Source: Desulfobacula sp.
GTDB taxonomy: Bacteria; Desulfobacterota; Desulfobacteria; Desulfobacterales; Desulfobacteraceae
Assembly (NCBI RefSeq): GCF_030145145.1
Contig: NZ_JAQYWD010000005.1
Span: forward strand, 1 to 64,000
Direction: 5' to 3'
Length of the DNA stretch: 64,000 nt
In this document: positions 30,153 through 37,553 of the stretch, one piece after another
Numbering within the stretch: position 1 is the stretch's first letter
How the letters are laid out: each line of letters begins with the position of its first letter
The notes under the pieces: model-generated
Told to the model about the DNA's origin: nothing
Seen by the model: only the letters and a program-made list of their open reading frames with translations
Databases searched by the model: none
Translations under genes and position numbers: made by a program

Positions 30153-30411
30153 ACGCCTCCTTGCTTGAATGAAAATGGTTAAAATGCATTAATCCAGATG
30201 GTTTCCGTTTGACCTTATGTGTATGGGCATTGTTTGTTATACAATATTTTTATGGTTTTTCTATACTGGGTTGAAAAAAAAATCAATTTTAGAAAATTTA
30301 TTTGAACCCATGGTAAAAAAATGGAATCTGTAGTATTTCCATGATGAGACGGCAGTCCCCGGGGGTATGGACAGACAGGAAACAGGGTTTGGATTTTTGG
30401 CTGGGAAAAAT

Positions 30412-31806
30412 ATGGTTTCACTACATGCACGGATTTTGGTGGTTGACGATGATGAAGCCATAAGGGATGCCTTAAGGGTGATCCTTGAAGATGATTATGA
30501 TGTTGTCTGTGTCGACAGCGGATTCAAAGCCGTTGAAACGGTAAAAAAACAAGTGTTTGATCTGGTTTTCCTGGATGTTGTGATGCCTGAAATGGATGGT
30601 ATCGAAACGTTGAAGCGGATCAGATCCCTTGACAAAAACCTGGACATCATCATGGTTTCTGCTGTGGATCGTGCCCAGGAAGCCAGCGAGTCCATAAGGC
30701 ATGGCGCTTATGATTATATTACCAAACCCTTTGATCATGAAATTATATTAAACCGGTTGGAAAAAGTTCTTTTGAAGCGGAACCTTGCAAAGGAAGTCAA
30801 GTTTCATAGAACTGAAGCCGCTTCCGGCACTCAGCAGACCCAAATTATCAGTCGATCAAAAAACATGGCTGCTGTGTTTGATATCGTGGCAAAGGTTGCC
30901 CGAACATCCAGTAATGTTTTGATCACAGGAGAAAGTGGAACCGGAAAAGAACTGGTCGCCCGGGCAGTTCACCATGGGAGCCTGCGCAGTGACAAACCCT
31001 TTGTTGCCATCAATTGTGCGGCCATACCGGCAGAACTCATGGAAGCTGAATTTTTCGGCCATGAAAAAGGGGCGTTCACCGGTGCCCATAAACAGACCAT
31101 GGGTAAATTTGAATTTGCTCACCAGGGAACGCTTTTCCTGGATGAGGTTTCCAGCTTGAAACCTGAATTCCAGGCAAAGCTGTTACGATTTATCCAGGAA
31201 CGTGAATTTTCACGGGTGGGCAGTCATCGTACCATTAAAGTGGACGTCCGAATTGTTGTTGCCACCAATACCAGTCTGGATGAGATGGTGAAAGACGGGT
31301 CGTTCAGGGAGGATCTCTATTTCAGGCTTAATGTGGTGCCGGTATTGTTGCCGCCCCTTCGCAATCGAAAAGGGGATGTCCCGTTGCTGGTAGATTTTTT
31401 CCTGGACAGGTTCAACCGCCAGATGAATAAACGCATCAAAGGCTTTACTCCGGATGCCATTGCCCTGATGGATGCCTATCCCTGGCCGGGAAATATCCGG
31501 GAGCTGGAAAATCTTATCGAACGGATGGTGGTATTGGGATCAGACAATAGGTTCCTGGATGAAAAAGATCTTCCCTTTGACCTGTTGTTCAGCACTGAGA
31601 CGACAACAGGGGCGGATAGATGCGCCGGTGAAAATAAGGGGTTGATCCAGGCCCGACAGTCTTTTGAACGGCTCTATATTTTGAGGGCGCTTCAGAATTG
31701 CCGATGGAACCAGACCTCGGCTGCCCATCTGCTTGGGATTCATAGAAATACCCTGATCCAGAAAATGAAAACACTGAACCTTAACCGGGATCAGAATACG
31801 TTTTGA
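30412..31806 (+). CDS. Sigma-54-dependent response regulator (NtrC family)
   Basis: 464 residues from ATG 30412, with GGGA 7-8 nt upstream; an ATG 45 nt earlier is too close to its G-run. Receiver at 1-120 (VVDDDEA, Asp in FLDVVMPE, Lys in ITKPFD). AAA+ at about 145-380 with Walker A GESGTGKE, intact GAFTGA (about 220) and FLDEVS. Fis-type HTH at the end (QTSAAHLLGIHRNTLIQKMK). It activates -24/-12 promoters from distant enhancer sites. It is convergent with, and overlaps by 16 bp, the membrane kinase gene, its likely partner. Its likely targets are the two -24/-12 promoters near 35.7 and 36.15 kb (inference). Confidence 0.92.
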   Translation: MVSLHARILVVDDDEAIRDALRVILEDDYDVVCVDSGFKAVETVKKQVFDLVFLDVVMPEMDGIETLKRIRSLDKNLDIIMVSAVDRAQEASESIRHGAYDYITKPFDHEIILNRLEKVLLKRNLAKEVKFHRTEAASGTQQTQIISRSKNMAAVFDIVAKVARTSSNVLITGESGTGKELVARAVHHGSLRSDKPFVAINCAAIPAELMEAEFFGHEKGAFTGAHKQTMGKFEFAHQGTLFLDEVSSLKPEFQAKLLRFIQEREFSRVGSHRTIKVDVRIVVATNTSLDEMVKDGSFREDLYFRLNVVPVLLPPLRNRKGDVPLLVDFFLDRFNRQMNKRIKGFTPDAIALMDAYPWPGNIRELENLIERMVVLGSDNRFLDEKDLPFDLLFSTETTTGADRCAGENKGLIQARQSFERLYILRALQNCRWNQTSAAHLLGIHRNTLIQKMKTLNLNRDQNTF

Positions 31807-33677
31807 TGCTGCTGCTGTATGGGCAGGGTAACTGAAAAGCAGCTGCCTTTCCCTGTTTGACTTTTTGCTCGTATCTGACCCTTGTGTTCTGAGATCACCT
31901 TATGGGTAATGGCAAGACCCAGACCGGTCCCCTTGGATTTGGTAGTAAAAAATGGATTGAAAATATTTTGAGCCAGTTCCGGGGAAAATCCATGGCCGGA
32001 ATCCTTGAAATCCATTACCAGATGATTGTCTTGCGCTGATACACAAATGGCGATAACGCCCCCGTCCGGCATTGCCTGGGCCCCGTTCTGCAGGAGATTG
32101 ATAAATACTTTTTCAAGCTGGGCCGCATCTGCCATGATCCTGGGCAGATCATCCGGCACATCCCATTGACAGTCTATGCCCCGGGCTTTAAAATCCGCTT
32201 CCAGCCGTTCAATACTCTGCCTCAGCAACGCTTGGATATCTGTCTGTTTGAAATTATATTTTGGCAACCTTGACAACTCCAGGAGTTCTTCTATTAGGGC
32301 GTTGAGGCGGTTGATTTCCCTGGGAACCGTTCGCTGAAACTTCTCCAGGAACCCGGGTTGTTGTATTTTCCCCGGCAGCAGGGCCACATAGGTTTTAATG
32401 GCAGAAAGGGGATTTCGAATTTCATGGGCCATGCCGGCAGCCAGGGTTCCCAGGTCGGCAAGCCGCTGGTTTTGACGGATTTCAGCCTCAAGCTGCTTAA
32501 GGGCGGTAATATCATTGAGGGTGAAGATCATCTGCCGGGGGGTTTTTTTATCCGATTCAAGAACACCTGCACCGACCAGGATCACCCGGGGGGCGCCATC
32601 CCTTTGGAGATGGACCTCCCGCTGGTTCCCGGTAGACGGGTTTTCAAAGGCGTGCTGTATATACGCTGCAAATGGACTGGTTTTGTCAAAAAGTGCTAAC
32701 GCATGTCCGCCTTTGACGGTGTGGTCCCGGGGGATTCCCAGAATATCATGGGCTGCCGGATTGACAGTGGTAACAATCCCGTCCATGTCAACGGCCAATA
32801 GGCCGTCATTCATTGTGGCCAGTATTTTTTCAGCATATTGCTGCAAGTGTTTGATTTGTTTGAGTTGGTTTTCCAATTGCTGTTTTTGGACAAGAATTTC
32901 CCGGATCATGGCGGAAAAATTGGATGCCAGGATCTCCACTTCATCCCGGGTGTGAATGGAAATTTCTTGTTTTAAATTGCCCCGGGCAGCTTCAAGCGTG
33001 GCCTTAACCAGGGTTTCCAGGGGGCTTGTGACCCGTTGGGCCGCCCAGTTCGAGACCAGGATACCCATGGCAAGGGCGACAGATCCCAGGATCAGAATAC
33101 TCCAGAGGGTCTGGCGGATCTGCAGATACATCAGTTCAAGGGATAAGCAGACCCGGATGGTTCCCCACCGATCCCGGGTACCGGGAAGGTATACGGGTAC
33201 GGCCACATCCATGACCGGTATTGTGCTGAATTCAGTTGCATGGACGGTAATTTCGGGGTCTGTTACCTCAACGGCATTCAGGCTGGTAGTGTCTGTCAGT
33301 AGCTGGTTCTGGAGATCAGGTCGTCGGCTGTAACCCGCCACTCTTCCTTCCTTGTCATGGACAATTACATAAAGGATGTCAGGATTATGGACAGCTTGAT
33401 TGGCCAGTTTTTCCAGGGCAACATAGTTATATGTAATCAAGTGATCAACGGATATGATCCCCAGATTTTTTGCAATGGTCAGTCCCTGTTGTTCAATCCT
33501 GCCCCGGATGGTCCGGGTTTGAAGTATTCCCAGAACCAGGGCAAGCGTGGTCAGCAACAGCAGGAGCATGATCGAGGTGATAAAGATAAATCGGTAGCGC
33601 AGGGAAACAAAACCGGGTTGTTTGACTATCTTTTCCCTGCCCTGGAACACACCATCATGTTTTTTCTCCTGGCGCAT
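31791..33677 (-). CDS. Membrane histidine kinase (sensor-HAMP-PAS-HisKA-HATPase)
   Basis: 628 residues from ATG 33677, chosen because AAAGGAAC lies 6 nt upstream; a longer in-frame extension would run into the preceding gene. TM1 at about 27-50 (FIFITSIMLLLLLTTLAL), a periplasmic domain of about 140 residues, TM2 near 195-215, HAMP, a coiled coil, PAS at about 280-390, HisKA with phospho-His in GMAHEIRNPLSAI (about 415), and HATPase boxes NLLQNGAQAMPDGG, DSGHGFS, GTGLGLAI. It begins 19 nt after the stop of the peptide-binding lipoprotein gene, hence one operon. Its 3' end overlaps the 3' end of the convergent regulator gene. Confidence 0.92.
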   Translation of the reverse strand: MRQEKKHDGVFQGREKIVKQPGFVSLRYRFIFITSIMLLLLLTTLALVLGILQTRTIRGRIEQQGLTIAKNLGIISVDHLITYNYVALEKLANQAVHNPDILYVIVHDKEGRVAGYSRRPDLQNQLLTDTTSLNAVEVTDPEITVHATEFSTIPVMDVAVPVYLPGTRDRWGTIRVCLSLELMYLQIRQTLWSILILGSVALAMGILVSNWAAQRVTSPLETLVKATLEAARGNLKQEISIHTRDEVEILASNFSAMIREILVQKQQLENQLKQIKHLQQYAEKILATMNDGLLAVDMDGIVTTVNPAAHDILGIPRDHTVKGGHALALFDKTSPFAAYIQHAFENPSTGNQREVHLQRDGAPRVILVGAGVLESDKKTPRQMIFTLNDITALKQLEAEIRQNQRLADLGTLAAGMAHEIRNPLSAIKTYVALLPGKIQQPGFLEKFQRTVPREINRLNALIEELLELSRLPKYNFKQTDIQALLRQSIERLEADFKARGIDCQWDVPDDLPRIMADAAQLEKVFINLLQNGAQAMPDGGVIAICVSAQDNHLVMDFKDSGHGFSPELAQNIFNPFFTTKSKGTGLGLAITHKVISEHKGQIRAKSQTGKGSCFSVTLPIQQQHQNVF

Positions 33678-33696
33678 ACCGTTCCTTTGTAAATGT

Positions 33697-35346
33697 TTAG
33701 TTGCCTGGGGGGGCATTCTCCAGCCAGATTCGATTGAGCGGCATGGTATGGGCTCCCAGGGCATTCACGGTAATGGATTTAACATAGGGTTGATACACCC
33801 GGTCCACGTTCATATAAAAAAGCGGGATCAGCGGGGTTGTCGTCATGATCTTTTTTTCGATCTCCTGGTACATCTTTGCCCGGCGGACCGGTTCCACAAT
33901 TCCCCTGGCCGTCAACAGCATCTGGTCCACACGTTCATCCTGAAATCCCATGAAATTGGTAGGGGATTCAGATGCAAAAAGAGAGTGTAAAAAACTGTCC
34001 GCATCCGGCATATCAGCAAACCAGGCATACCGGTAAATCTGGACATCCCTTGATCCCAGATAGGCTTCAAATTCTTTCCAGTCAGAGATATATTTGACCC
34101 TGAGCTTTATACCGATTTTGGCCCAGAAGCCCTTGATCATATCCATTTCCTGCTCAACGAGAGGGGTTTGGATGGCGGATACAATCTCAAGTTCCGGTAG
34201 ATTTTTCACGCGCTTTCCAATGGATTGTTCCAACTGCTGAAGGGCAAATTCCGGGGTATCATCCGCCATCCGGTTCAAGGGACTGTATCCCGGCATTCCA
34301 GGGGGTAAAATGGTCCGTGCAATTTCAAACTGCGCTTTATAGATTTTATTAACAAATGCTTCACGGTCAACGGCAATGGAAAGGGCTTTTCGAAGTTCAG
34401 GATTTGCAAGGTTGGGATGCTGCATGTTCATGCCGTAAAAAAAAAGGCTCAGAGAAGGCCTGTGAAACCATTGAAGCCCTTTGATTTCAGAGAGTTTTTC
34501 TCTGCGGTTTCCGTAGACGGCCATTTCTTCAAGTGCACCCGCTTGAAAATCCGATAGCACCAATGGGTCTTGTCCTCCCGGATAGATTTTATAGTGGATT
34601 TCATCAAGAAAGGCCGGCCCGGCATAATAGTCGTCAAACCGTTTAAGTCGGACAGTTTTTCCCTCTTCCCAGGACATAAACCTGAAGGGGCCGGTTCCCA
34701 TGGGATACGATCCAAATTCATTGCCAAGCCGAAGCACTTCTTTTTGGGGAACAATGGCAGCCTGGTACATACCCAGGGCTGTCAGAAAGGGCGCATGGGA
34801 TTCTTCAAGACGCACAGTGAAAATCTTTTCATTTTCAATGGCCAACCCTTGAACCCTTTCTATGGTTCCGGCCCGGTATTCCTTTGCCCCGACAATTTTG
34901 AGCAGATGGGGCAGGACAGCAGGCGCAGGTAAGGCCCGCAAAAGCCTGCTGATGGAAAACACCACATCCTTTGACGTGACGGTTTCCAGATTATGAAAAT
35001 GCGCATTTTCCCTCAGGGTAAACCGGTATACCTTGCCCTCTTCTTTTACCTGCCATGTTTCAGCTAAATCCGGTAAAACAGAAAGATAGGGGTCAAACCG
35101 AACCAGGCCGTTAAAAAGCTGATGAACAAGGGCAATGCCATAAATATCCTGAACATAAGCTGGGTCAAGGGTGGTTGGGTTACTCCTCAACGGTACCCGG
35201 TAAATGCCGCCCCGGAAGGGTACTGGCGCGGATACTGTCTGGTTTATTGTCACTTGCTCTTCCTGGTTTGTGCAGCTGGGCAGGACAACCACATTGAGGA
35301 AAAGAAAGAAAGTGAAAAAGAGGTAGGGTAAAATTGGCAAGTTCAT
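33697..35346 (-). CDS. Oligopeptide-binding lipoprotein (SBP_bac_5/OppA family), without ABC partners
   Basis: 549 residues from ATG 35346 (AAGGAG 5 nt upstream). A hydrophobic leader ends in a lipobox-like LPSC (Cys 25), so it is probably a lipoprotein. Family-5 features: YRVPLRSNPTTLDPAYVQD, then LVRFDPYLSVLPDLAETW, YRFTLRENAHFHN, MGTGPFRFMSWEEGKTVRLKRFDDY, NPELRKALSIAVDREAFVNKIY. OppA-type proteins bind short peptides or nickel chelates. No permease or ATPase gene is nearby; instead a histidine kinase follows 19 nt downstream. That suggests a sensing role, handing ligand occupancy to the kinase. A small secreted-peptide gene lies upstream on the same strand. Confidence 0.88.
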   Translation of the reverse strand: MNLPILPYLFFTFFLFLNVVVLPSCTNQEEQVTINQTVSAPVPFRGGIYRVPLRSNPTTLDPAYVQDIYGIALVHQLFNGLVRFDPYLSVLPDLAETWQVKEEGKVYRFTLRENAHFHNLETVTSKDVVFSISRLLRALPAPAVLPHLLKIVGAKEYRAGTIERVQGLAIENEKIFTVRLEESHAPFLTALGMYQAAIVPQKEVLRLGNEFGSYPMGTGPFRFMSWEEGKTVRLKRFDDYYAGPAFLDEIHYKIYPGGQDPLVLSDFQAGALEEMAVYGNRREKLSEIKGLQWFHRPSLSLFFYGMNMQHPNLANPELRKALSIAVDREAFVNKIYKAQFEIARTILPPGMPGYSPLNRMADDTPEFALQQLEQSIGKRVKNLPELEIVSAIQTPLVEQEMDMIKGFWAKIGIKLRVKYISDWKEFEAYLGSRDVQIYRYAWFADMPDADSFLHSLFASESPTNFMGFQDERVDQMLLTARGIVEPVRRAKMYQEIEKKIMTTTPLIPLFYMNVDRVYQPYVKSITVNALGAHTMPLNRIWLENAPPGN

Positions 35347-35470
35347 TTTTCTCCTTAACCGACAAATGTTCAAAGAAAAAAGAAACTATCATATGAAGGG
35401 GGGGGATTGCAAGTATCCAAATGATAATTCAGTGATACCTGGGCTATTGATGACCTGAAATGGAATAAAA

Positions 35471-35502
35471 AAACACGGTAGAGATGATACCGTGTTTTTT
35501 TT
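35471..35502. terminator. Intrinsic terminator downstream of the small-peptide gene
   Basis: Perfect 10-bp stem AAACACGGTA / TACCGTGTTT, loop GAGATGA, with an A-run on the left (a U-tract for minus-strand RNA) and a T-run on the right. It lies 40 nt after the stop of the small-peptide gene and 125 nt before the binding-protein gene, so read-through would set how much of the downstream operon is made. Confidence 0.75.
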
Positions 35503-35541: not shown

Positions 35542-35637
35542 CTAGCCGGGACCGCCTCCGCCACCAGCCAGAACAGGCATTGCATATCCGGCAACCAACA
35601 CACCAATTACAAATAATTTTACCATTAAATCTTTCAT
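35542..35637 (-). CDS. Small exported glycine-rich peptide (31 residues), putative signal peptide precursor
   Basis: Read codon by codon: a 31-residue product starting MKDLMVKLFVIGVLVAGYAM and ending PVLAGGGGGPG, stop TAG. AAGGAG lies 7 nt before the ATG. The N-terminus is a classical Sec signal: Lys, a hydrophobic core, and a V-L-A signal-peptidase-I site. Cleavage there would leave only seven residues, GGGGGPG. A -24/-12 promoter stands about 80 nt upstream and a terminator 40 nt downstream, so it has all parts of a complete gene. Downstream on the same strand are an OppA-like lipoprotein and a kinase. I infer a precursor of an extracellular or periplasmic peptide signal; a regulatory leader peptide is the alternative. 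No homologue is known to me. Confidence 0.7.
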   Translation of the reverse strand: MKDLMVKLFVIGVLVAGYAMPVLAGGGGGPG

Positions 35638-35716
35638 TGTTTTCTCCTTTTTCTGAGTGTCACGTTTCTGCTTGATTCAATATCAATCCAGTCATCATCT
35701 TGTTGACCATTGATAT

Positions 35717-35732
35717 AGCAAAGCAGGGACCA
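35717..35732 (-). promoter_or_regulatory. Sigma-54 promoter of the small-peptide gene
   Basis: Minus-strand TGGTCCCTGCTTTGCT: invariant GG and GC with the exact 10-nt spacing and a TTTGC -12 box; the -24 box is TGGTCC rather than TGGCAC. The expected start is near 35705, about 68 nt before the ATG. A 10-bp direct repeat GACCATTGAT flanks it (35705-35714, 35728-35737). Confidence 0.6.
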
Positions 35733-35829: not shown

Positions 35830-35847
35830 TGCACATTCCCATGTGCA
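35830..35847. promoter_or_regulatory. Enhancer-like dyad, copy 1
   Basis: TGCACAT-TCCC-ATGTGCA: a perfect 7-bp inverted repeat with a 4-nt centre, embedded in a second overlapping repeat (CATGGGA-N9-TCCCATG, 35821-35843). Its centre is about 120 bp from the -12 box of the minus-strand promoter. TGCAC/GTGCA half-sites also occur in NtrC-type enhancers. Confidence 0.6.
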
Positions 35848-35931: not shown

Positions 35932-35949
35932 TGCCCATGTTTATGTGCA
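35932..35949. promoter_or_regulatory. Enhancer-like dyad, copy 2
   Basis: TGCCCATGTTTATGTGCA: 13 of 18 bases match copy 1, same length and orientation. It is flanked by a perfect 10-bp inverted repeat GACAATCTGC-N12-GCAGATTGTC (35925-35956). It lies almost exactly midway between the two -24/-12 promoters (about 222 and 216 bp from their -12 boxes). Confidence 0.6.
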
Positions 35950-36142: not shown

Positions 36143-36158
36143 TGGCACAATCCTTGCT
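36143..36158 (+). promoter_or_regulatory. Sigma-54 promoter of the leader ORF and kinase-receiver gene
   Basis: TGGCACAATCCTTGCT, an essentially perfect -24/-12 promoter (TGGCAC-N5-TTGCT). The expected start is near 36170, giving a leader of about 130 nt before the kinase ATG. Confidence 0.8.
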
Positions 36159-36267: not shown

Positions 36268-36300
36268 AAAGCATCAGTTGATTTGCGGATTTCTCTTTAA
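36232..36300 (+). CDS. 22-residue leader ORF coupled to the kinase gene
   Basis: TTG start 6 nt after GGAGG, 22 sense codons (MIRFHTQRF...VDLRISL), stop TAA overlapping the kinase ATG as TAATG. The kinase start itself has no ribosome-binding site upstream, so translational coupling through this ORF is the likely way it is translated. The peptide is basic and not secreted; I see no reason to think it has a function beyond regulation. The short length means a chance ORF cannot be excluded, but Shine-Dalgarno, spacing and overlap all agree. Confidence 0.55.
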   Translation: MIRFHTQRFESSKASVDLRISL

Positions 36301-37553
36301 TGAACACTTTAGTAGCGGATACACATCTATTGAATGATTCCTCATCAGGGCCAGAGATTGATATCAATTATTTGAAGAATCTCGAACAGGAAAATACACG
36401 CCTGAAACATAAGCTTCAGCAGACACAGAAAATGGAAGCCATTGGTGAGCTTTCAAGTGGGATTGCTCATGATTTCAATAATATTCTTCAGCCCATCATT
36501 GGCAACCTGGAGCTACTGATAGAGGATACACATGATGACAGGAAGCTTCAAAATACCCTTAAAAATGTACTTACAGGTGCCAACAGAGCCGGCAGTCTGG
36601 TGAAACAGATTCTCAGCTTCAGTCATCAGTCAGACTTTGAGGTCAGTTCTGTAAAAATTCAGACGATTATCAGGGAAGTATTAAAATTAAGCCGGTCAAC
36701 GCTGCCAGTCACAATTAATATAATGCAGACCATTGACAATGCGTGTGGACCGGTAAAGGCAGATCCCACACACATTTATCAGATTGCCATGAACCTGATT
36801 ACCAATGCATTTCATGCAATGGGTCAGGAAGGCGGAACCCTGGATGTCACACTCGAAGAAATCGACGTCACAGGAAAGGCCCCGGGAGAACTGATCTTGA
36901 ATCCGGGGCCGTATGTCTGTTTAAGCGTTTCTGATACGGGTGAGGGTATAGATGCGGCTATCAGAAACAAGATTTTTGAGCCCTATTTTACAACTAAAAA
37001 AAAGGGGGAGGGGACAGGGCTCGGGCTTTCCGTTATTTCCGGTATCATAAAAGGCTATGGCGGAGAAATTTGCTGCTCCAGTGAGCCGGGAAAGGGAAGT
37101 CTTTTTCAGGTATACTTTCCCAGAGATCATGGCTCGTTTAACATCCGCTCGCTTGAAGAGGATAAAAAAAAAGATCTGTACGGGTGTGAATCCATTCTTT
37201 TTGTTGATGATGATCCGTTTATTGTGGATGTCCAGAAACAGACCCTTGAGCGTTATGGGTATGTTGTCACGCCGTTTGAGAGCAGTCTTGGTGCACTGAA
37301 TGAATTTAAAGCCAGGCCCGGAGTTTTTGACATTGTCATCTGCGACATGACAATGCCCACGCTGACCGGTCTGGGCCTGGCAATTAAAATCAAAGAGATC
37401 CGTCCTGATATCCCGGTTATTATATGCACGGGTTTCAGTGAACAGATCAACAAAAACAATTACCAGGACATGGGGATTGACGGGTTTTTAATGAAACCGG
37501 TTAACAAGGAAGAATCGCTTAAGCTGATCCGGGACCTTTTGAACCCCAGGTGA
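36300..37553 (+). CDS. Cytoplasmic hybrid histidine kinase (coiled coil-HisKA-HATPase-REC)
   Basis: 417 residues without membrane segments or a recognisable sensor domain. A short N-terminal coiled coil (about 22-45) leads to HisKA with the phospho-His in SGIAHDFNNILQPI (His 57), HATPase boxes NAFHAMGQEGG, DTGEGID and GTGLGLSV, and a C-terminal receiver (about 295-417) with FVDDDPF, the Asp in VICDMTMP and Lys in MKPVN. Kinases of this HDFNN type often feed NtrC-family regulators. It is driven by a strong sigma-54 promoter and a coupled leader ORF, so it probably belongs to the same circuit as the regulator, membrane kinase and small peptide to its left. Confidence 0.9.
   Translation: MNTLVADTHLLNDSSSGPEIDINYLKNLEQENTRLKHKLQQTQKMEAIGELSSGIAHDFNNILQPIIGNLELLIEDTHDDRKLQNTLKNVLTGANRAGSLVKQILSFSHQSDFEVSSVKIQTIIREVLKLSRSTLPVTINIMQTIDNACGPVKADPTHIYQIAMNLITNAFHAMGQEGGTLDVTLEEIDVTGKAPGELILNPGPYVCLSVSDTGEGIDAAIRNKIFEPYFTTKKKGEGTGLGLSVISGIIKGYGGEICCSSEPGKGSLFQVYFPRDHGSFNIRSLEEDKKKDLYGCESILFVDDDPFIVDVQKQTLERYGYVVTPFESSLGALNEFKARPGVFDIVICDMTMPTLTGLGLAIKIKEIRPDIPVIICTGFSEQINKNNYQDMGIDGFLMKPVNKEESLKLIRDLLNPR

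Follow-up and report, generated by a model that had tools for sequence, protein, structure and literature searches.

The window, i.e., the whole stretch of 64,000 nucleotides of Desulfobacula DNA analyzed here, contains a 31-codon gene for a predicted exported peptide, followed by genes for an OppA-like solute-binding protein (SBP), a membrane histidine kinase and a convergently oriented NtrC-type activator (Table 1). The sequence-only reading from which this analysis started had placed the peptide gene correctly but left its strand unstated. The gene lies on the minus strand, where the frame 35637..35542 translates as MKDLMVKLFVIGVLVAGYAMPVLAGGGGGPG*, and the plus strand of 35542..35637 contains stop codons. 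Everything that had been listed for the locus, that is an ATG, a ribosome-binding site, a Sec signal peptide with V-L-A, the remainder GGGGGPG, a terminator and a -24/-12 element, is present, and the gene announced as peptide-binding on the same strand is the OppA-like gene downstream of the peptide. The predicted signal peptidase cut between MKDLMVKLFVIGVLVAGYAMPVLA and GGGGGPG, after VLA, was placed by eye.

Table 1. Features of the peptide locus (positions in the window)
Feature	Position	Strand	Remarks
NtrC-type response regulator/sigma-54 activator	30367..31806	+	REC, AAA+ with GAFTGA, Fis-type HTH
Membrane histidine kinase	31791..33764	-	Weak Cache-like sensor match, HAMP, PAS, HisKA, HATPase; start uncertain
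OppA-like solute-binding protein, putative peptide receptor	33697..35346	-	Lipobox, SBP_bac_5; start codon by eye
Terminator-like hairpin between peptide and SBP genes	35501..35467	-	14 pairs and T run
31-codon peptide gene	35637..35542	-	MKDLMVKLFVIGVLVAGYAMPVLA followed by GGGGGPG; basis: translation, homologues, selection
AGGAG ribosome-binding site	35644..35648	-	6 nt before ATG
Sigma-54 (-24/-12) promoter-like site TGGTCCCTGCTTTGCT of peptide gene	35732..35717	-	Starts 95 nt upstream of ATG
Palindrome TGCACATTCCCATGTGCA, putative activator site 1	35830..35847		Exact; no second exact copy in the genome (5.66 Mb)
Palindrome TGCCCATGTTTATGTGCA, putative activator site 2	35932..35949		One mismatch; 102 bp from site 1
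Sigma-54 promoter-like site TGGCACAATCCTTGCT	36143..36158	+	Towards divergent kinase-receiver gene at 36300
Divergent cytoplasmic HisKA-HATPase-REC protein, possible second target	36300..37553	+	Not in all loci

Relatives carry a purine-rich ribosome-binding site at the equivalent position. The terminator-like hairpin starts 40 nt past the stop codon of the peptide gene; as a scan of the region gave four such sites vs. 2.7 expected, it is given weight mainly because relatives keep one, comparable hairpins being visible by eye in most of them. Between hairpin and SBP start, at about 35387-35421, lies an element kept in relatives, ATACTTGCAT ... TATGGTAAAT (by eye), that may serve the receptor operon as a promoter of its own.

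Distribution of the peptide and its genetic neighborhood

Matches to the peptide at E 1.4e-4 or better were found in 14 of 58 genomes from the genus, family and order (source genome included), and precursor length, ribosome-binding site and type of ending were alike in all of them. The sequence-only reading had named beforehand what would speak against it, a frame not conserved where relatives retain the genes on either side; the frame is conserved there, and SBP and kinase are linked to it. Since 14 of the 58 related genomes match and synonymous changes far exceed replacements in the glycine core of the tail, comparative evidence identifies the peptide frame as a real gene and not as a chance open reading frame.

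When 389 genomes of the order were searched with a peptide profile of 14 members (A1), 27 of them, including the source genome, matched strongly (E <= 1.7e-11), and about seven further matches were weak, with E above 0.003. In a sample of 395 genomes from the phylum, 13 passed E <= 0.001; one is the source genome, 11 of the other 12 matches adjoin an SBP, and one (G600) is false. Homologues also occur in other orders and in Rokubacteria, and carriers that are named strains rather than metagenome-assembled genomes comprise Desulfocicer vacuolatum DSM 3385, Desulfogranum marinum DSM 2058 and Desulforhabdus sp. TSK. Not retained as members were L044 and L045 (weak peptide matches, E 0.6 and 0.5), L082 from G366 (match within a 193-residue frame) and L223, the false match from G600 (a stop, no SBP). 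Searches of Pfam and NCBIfam with the window peptide returned no family at E <= 10, and the 14 A1 members gave weak matches only (lowest E 0.071 for NCBIfam, 0.077 for Pfam). The literature searched held no description of the peptide or the module, which is weak evidence of absence as subscription papers were mostly not covered.

In the first 14 loci compared, the SBP was present in all and the kinase in 13, the remaining contig stopping inside the SBP; an activator lies within 9 kb in 13 and, in the fourteenth, behind four SBP genes. Several other families have the activator in divergent orientation upstream of the peptide. The only gene families common to more than five of the 14 loci were those of SBP, kinase and receiver-domain proteins, no transporter is conserved beside the SBP in these loci, and eight further neighbors in the window have no permease domain. 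The same 389 order genomes were searched separately with the peptide profile and a kinase-sensor profile. The latter matched in 29 genomes (E <= 7e-66), including all 27 with the peptide (hypergeometric P 1.3e-39, treating genomes as independent and ignoring relatedness). The two kinase genomes outside the overlap are cut by contig ends, G011 inside the SBP and G390 inside the peptide, whose visible 3' part reads ...VIAGGGGGPF.

A wide scan with the kinase-sensor profile across a collection of genome contigs (84,980 species by its description) yielded 73 loci. Of these, 23 were not assessable, 12 having less than 300 nt upstream of the first SBP (two of them, L153 and L173, are known from other contig data to have the peptide) and 11 having no SBP upstream of the kinase. 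Among the 50 assessable loci, 46 (L146 included) carry a peptide gene just before the OppA-like SBP and histidine kinase. Four (L189, L192, L193, L199) have an SBP and enough upstream DNA and no peptide; their SBPs are 29-31% identical, and their activator matches are receiver-like only or absent. The activator exceeds 300 bits in 38 of 45 peptide loci (L146 being outside this count); in the other seven it is partial (L167, L191), the contigs are short or end (L155, L172, L179, L184), or no match occurs in 12.6 kb (L169). Kinase and SBP distances correlate (r 0.92, 25 loci). SBP, kinase and activator are each members of very large families. Linkage of the peptide to an OppA-like SBP and a kinase, mostly with a sigma-54 activator, extends across Desulfobacterota and Rokubacteria, and the peptide gene is genetically tied to a receptor pathway in the way that characterizes autoinducing peptide signaling.

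Six genomes contain kinase-SBP pairs in which the kinase is a distant match (E 3e-24 to 1e-31); these pairs were set apart from the family. Among eight such distant loci fetched, the SBP adjoins the kinase in six and an NtrC-type activator above 250 bits occurs in one (L132), and no comparable Gly-tailed candidate was present within 3.5 kb upstream of the six distant SBPs. In L131, L136 and L138 the pair is followed by an open reading frame with a common start containing KEVIYSLRMS; these pairs perhaps represent a sister sensor family with another ligand.

Selection on the tail and elements upstream of the gene

Codon comparison points to the glycine core of the tail as the site of strongest selection. 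Among 14 close loci pN/pS was 0.034 at the four core Gly codons vs. 0.333 in the signal part, 0 at the codon after the core (Pro) and 0.638 at the first residue past the cleavage site; across 37 loci the values were 0.082 for the core, 0.366 for the next codon, 0.380 for the signal part and 0.656 for the first tail residue. Within the core GGT, GGC and GGA are interchangeable, and selection therefore acts on the amino acids and not on a DNA repeat. Tails include GGGGGPG, SGGGGP, CGGAGP, VGGGGPW, CGGGGN, CGGGGD, RGGAGF, RGGGGP, QGGGGA, EGGGGF, EGGGY and AAGGGW. Differences among relatives lie mainly at the ends, the last residues being P, PG, PY, PF, PW, PC, N, D, A, T, W, F or Y. The leader is conserved within Desulfobacterota (A1 alignment). 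The eight rokubacterial loci share the Gly-rich tail and have an unrelated leader; their precursors of 43-45 residues end in TADGGGW, NAEGGGY, TADGGAGGE, etc., just before the SBP.

Peptide genes may be tandemly repeated, with three copies in Desulfocicer vacuolatum and Desulforhabdus sp. TSK and two each in L161, L168 and L179. One Desulfobacula genome, G002 (contig of L173), encodes a variant peptide with the ending ASASGSSYP, and four tandem OppA-like SBP genes separate it from the kinase (L043, 1013-9916). Two extra peptide genes with the endings GGGGGPW and SGGGGPW are located at 5242-5547 of L084 (G073), directly downstream of a gene for a protein with a sorting-signal-like C terminus; no SBP match occurs near this pair in the 7 kb fetched.

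Promoter-like sites were defined by GG-N10-GC plus at least six of seven further consensus positions within 300 nt upstream of the peptide. Such a site is present in 44 of 52 loci, whereas the opposite strand of this 300-nt stretch has one in none of the 52. Its distance from the ATG is 76-117 nt except in L042 and L076 (209 and 236 nt). The 52 include the false peptide match L082 and L075 with its 17 nt of upstream sequence, both of which are among the eight loci lacking the site. In 17 of the 52 loci there is also a divergent -24/-12 site, 454-601 nt away from the peptide. Further upstream, at about 200 and 300 nt from the peptide, stands the palindrome TGCACA-N6-TGTGCA, often twice, and in ten relatives exact pairs are 101-116 bp apart. 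Exact copies are nearly confined to the peptide locus: of 19 module-bearing genomes, 17 carry them there (27 sites) and five sites lie elsewhere, while the other two genomes have a copy elsewhere only (G018) or a contig that ends before the site (G390). In 11 relatives without the module there are two exact palindromes in all. When up to two mismatches are allowed, the source genome has 180 sites vs. 59 for the reversed pattern, a threefold excess over a control that is imperfect as its dinucleotide content differs, and a wider regulon of weaker sites may exist. The combination that marks a sigma-54 unit, GG-N10-GC, an upstream palindrome and an activator with GAFTGA and Fis-type HTH, was found in the window and in most loci, and in weaker form in Rokubacteria, where the promoter-like site occurs in three of eight loci (none on the opposite strand) and the palindrome in two of eight. 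As an exact string, GAFTGA is absent from seven of 23 activators compared.

The candidate receptor belongs to SBP_bac_5 (E 1.3e-68, 232.2 bits vs. a gathering score of 32.4). Its structure model (mean pLDDT 85.9) matches OppA/DppA-type proteins in the PDB, the first rank being a peptide-binding protein bound to aminoserine, the second Bacillus subtilis OppA with the PhrE pentapeptide and the thirty-fifth the pheromone receptor PrgZ. Binders of glutathione, nickel-histidine and opines are also on the list and the best PDB sequence matches are annotated as heme-binding protein A; because of these, the ligand cannot be deduced from the fold alone. The SBP has an Asp aligned to the DppA Asp, which we take to be the residue that holds the N-terminus of the ligand. 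All 28 family rows retain it, as do 27 of 28 rows that include SBPs of non-member loci. Gene linkage does not prove that the tail is the ligand. In L039 (6447-8084) and L072 (3478-5112) the signal region of the SBP ends LPGYA, and because this replaces the lipobox Cys these two proteins are probably soluble rather than lipid-anchored.

A candidate peptide circuit and competing explanations

On this basis we consider it likely that the locus encodes a peptide signal made on ribosomes, together with a dedicated pathway for sensing it, leading from SBP to kinase to activator and back to the peptide promoter. Sec would export the 31-residue precursor, and cleavage after VLA would release GGGGGPG, for which a mass of about 0.46 kDa is calculated. 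This is below the usual porin limit; no exporter gene would be needed. The free tail, five to eight residues in the family, would bind to the neighboring OppA-like lipoprotein, and the loaded SBP would act on the linked histidine kinase at its periplasmic domain. The kinase would phosphorylate the NtrC-type regulator, which would bind the TGCACA-N6-TGTGCA pair and drive sigma-54-dependent transcription of the peptide gene and, in the genus, perhaps also that of the divergent kinase-receiver gene. In its simplest form this would be a positive-feedback autoinduction loop. According to the sequence-only reading, the peptide would be a signal or the ligand of an OppA-type protein; linkage, palindromes, selection and tail variants all support that proposal, and the signaling role itself we infer. 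The variable end residues favor discrimination between strains. The exact palindromes reveal no broad regulon, which would be odd for a population switch.

The last point bears on a different use of the same circuit, in which the cell would gauge export rate, peptidase activity or diffusion in its periplasm or surroundings instead of population size. The few exact activator sites beyond the locus would fit such a private probe, as would a probable lipoprotein receptor seated on the producing cell and the ease with which a tiny peptide is lost through diffusion or proteolysis; tails that vary at their ends, however, suit strain discrimination and would be needless for it, and we regard this use as rather unlikely. 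That the pathway responds to another ligand of the SBP and yields the peptide as its output, e.g., as an antimicrobial or binding agent, is improbable. The peptide promoter is indeed the main place with exact activator-like sites and SBP family 5 has many ligands, but this would explain neither why peptide and peptide-type SBP go together almost one to one across phyla nor why the oligo-Gly tail is almost featureless.

Enterococcal lipoprotein-derived pheromones are signal-peptide fragments, and by analogy the hydrophobic signal-peptide fragment rather than the Gly tail could be the signal here, in keeping with the well conserved leader in Desulfobacterota. We give this very little credence, since pN/pS of the leader is about ten times that of GGGG and Rokubacteria keep the Gly tail behind an unrelated leader. 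A SecM- or TnaC-like leader or arrest peptide controlling the downstream SBP-kinase operon in cis would account for the place of the peptide just upstream of that operon, with a hairpin between, and for the many members ending in GP or P. Against it stand the variable last residues, the tandem copies, the two copies in G073, around which the 7 kb fetched gave no match to the SBP, and the conserved promoter-like element preceding the SBP (by eye). Moreover, a 30-residue chain would still sit inside the ribosome, and the family has neither invariant C-terminal arrest residues nor a fixed place before a regulated gene as in SecM and TnaC, so that we think cis control scarcely credible. A hydrophobic membrane peptide resembling type I toxins would likewise be tiny and sometimes tandem, yet the peptide here is linked to a sensor pathway, its promoter-like site is conserved and selection is strongest on its tail, all of which make the chance of this negligibly small.

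Relation to known signaling systems

If the tail acts as a signal, the nearest parallels are exported pheromones of Gram-positive bacteria that are read via OppA-type proteins, i.e., the Phr, PrgZ/cCF10 and SHP types. Common to them and the present module are a short linear ribosomal peptide, a small exported precursor and an OppA-type binding protein, and for Phr and PrgZ the resemblance extends to the structural matches of the SBP model with PhrE-bound OppA and PrgZ. In contrast to these systems, no transporter gene is conserved beside the SBP, sensing would probably take place outside via a kinase and a sigma-54 activator, and the hosts are diderm. Opp permeases and RRNPP receptors are not among the gene families common to more than five of the 14 loci, and on this count the module does not fit the Gram-positive RRNPP/Opp systems. 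With the enterococcal lipoprotein signal-peptide pheromones it shares a tiny peptide, a link to Sec export and an OppA-type receptor, whereas strongest selection here is on the C-terminal tail and not on the signal peptide. As in Agr and ComD-ComE, the peptide gene adjoins kinase and regulator and positive feedback is probable; unlike there, no processing or export gene is conserved, an SBP is interposed and control is of the sigma-54 type.

In LuxP-LuxQ-LuxU-LuxO, sensing by a binding protein and a kinase feeds a sigma-54 regulator. The proposed circuit is similar in that an extracytoplasmic binding protein and a membrane kinase would feed a sigma-54 activator; it differs in that the ligand would be a gene-encoded peptide and not AI-2, that the SBP belongs to family 5 and that no phosphorelay protein is among the genes common to the loci. 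LuxQ-LuxU-LuxO is named in PMC8895600, where peptide autoinducers are described for Gram-positive bacteria, and AHLs, AI-2 and other small molecules for Gram-negative ones. The circuit looks like a new kind of peptide signaling in Gram-negative bacteria. It would operate in the manner of Gram-positive pheromone circuits, with different connecting parts, and there is a fair chance that it deserves a class of its own. We lean towards such a new class, made up of linear, gene-encoded autoinducers that would be released by Sec as X-GGGG-Z, in which X and Z vary between species, and be read by a dedicated OppA-like protein and kinase in a sigma-54 loop, in diderms from sulfate reducers to Rokubacteria. 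If this is true, peptide signaling would extend to diderm lineages, including anaerobic sulfate reducers as well as Rokubacteria, the signal would be a peptide of five to eight residues that is simple to synthesize and test, and an ultra-short gene would be the key part of a conserved pathway.
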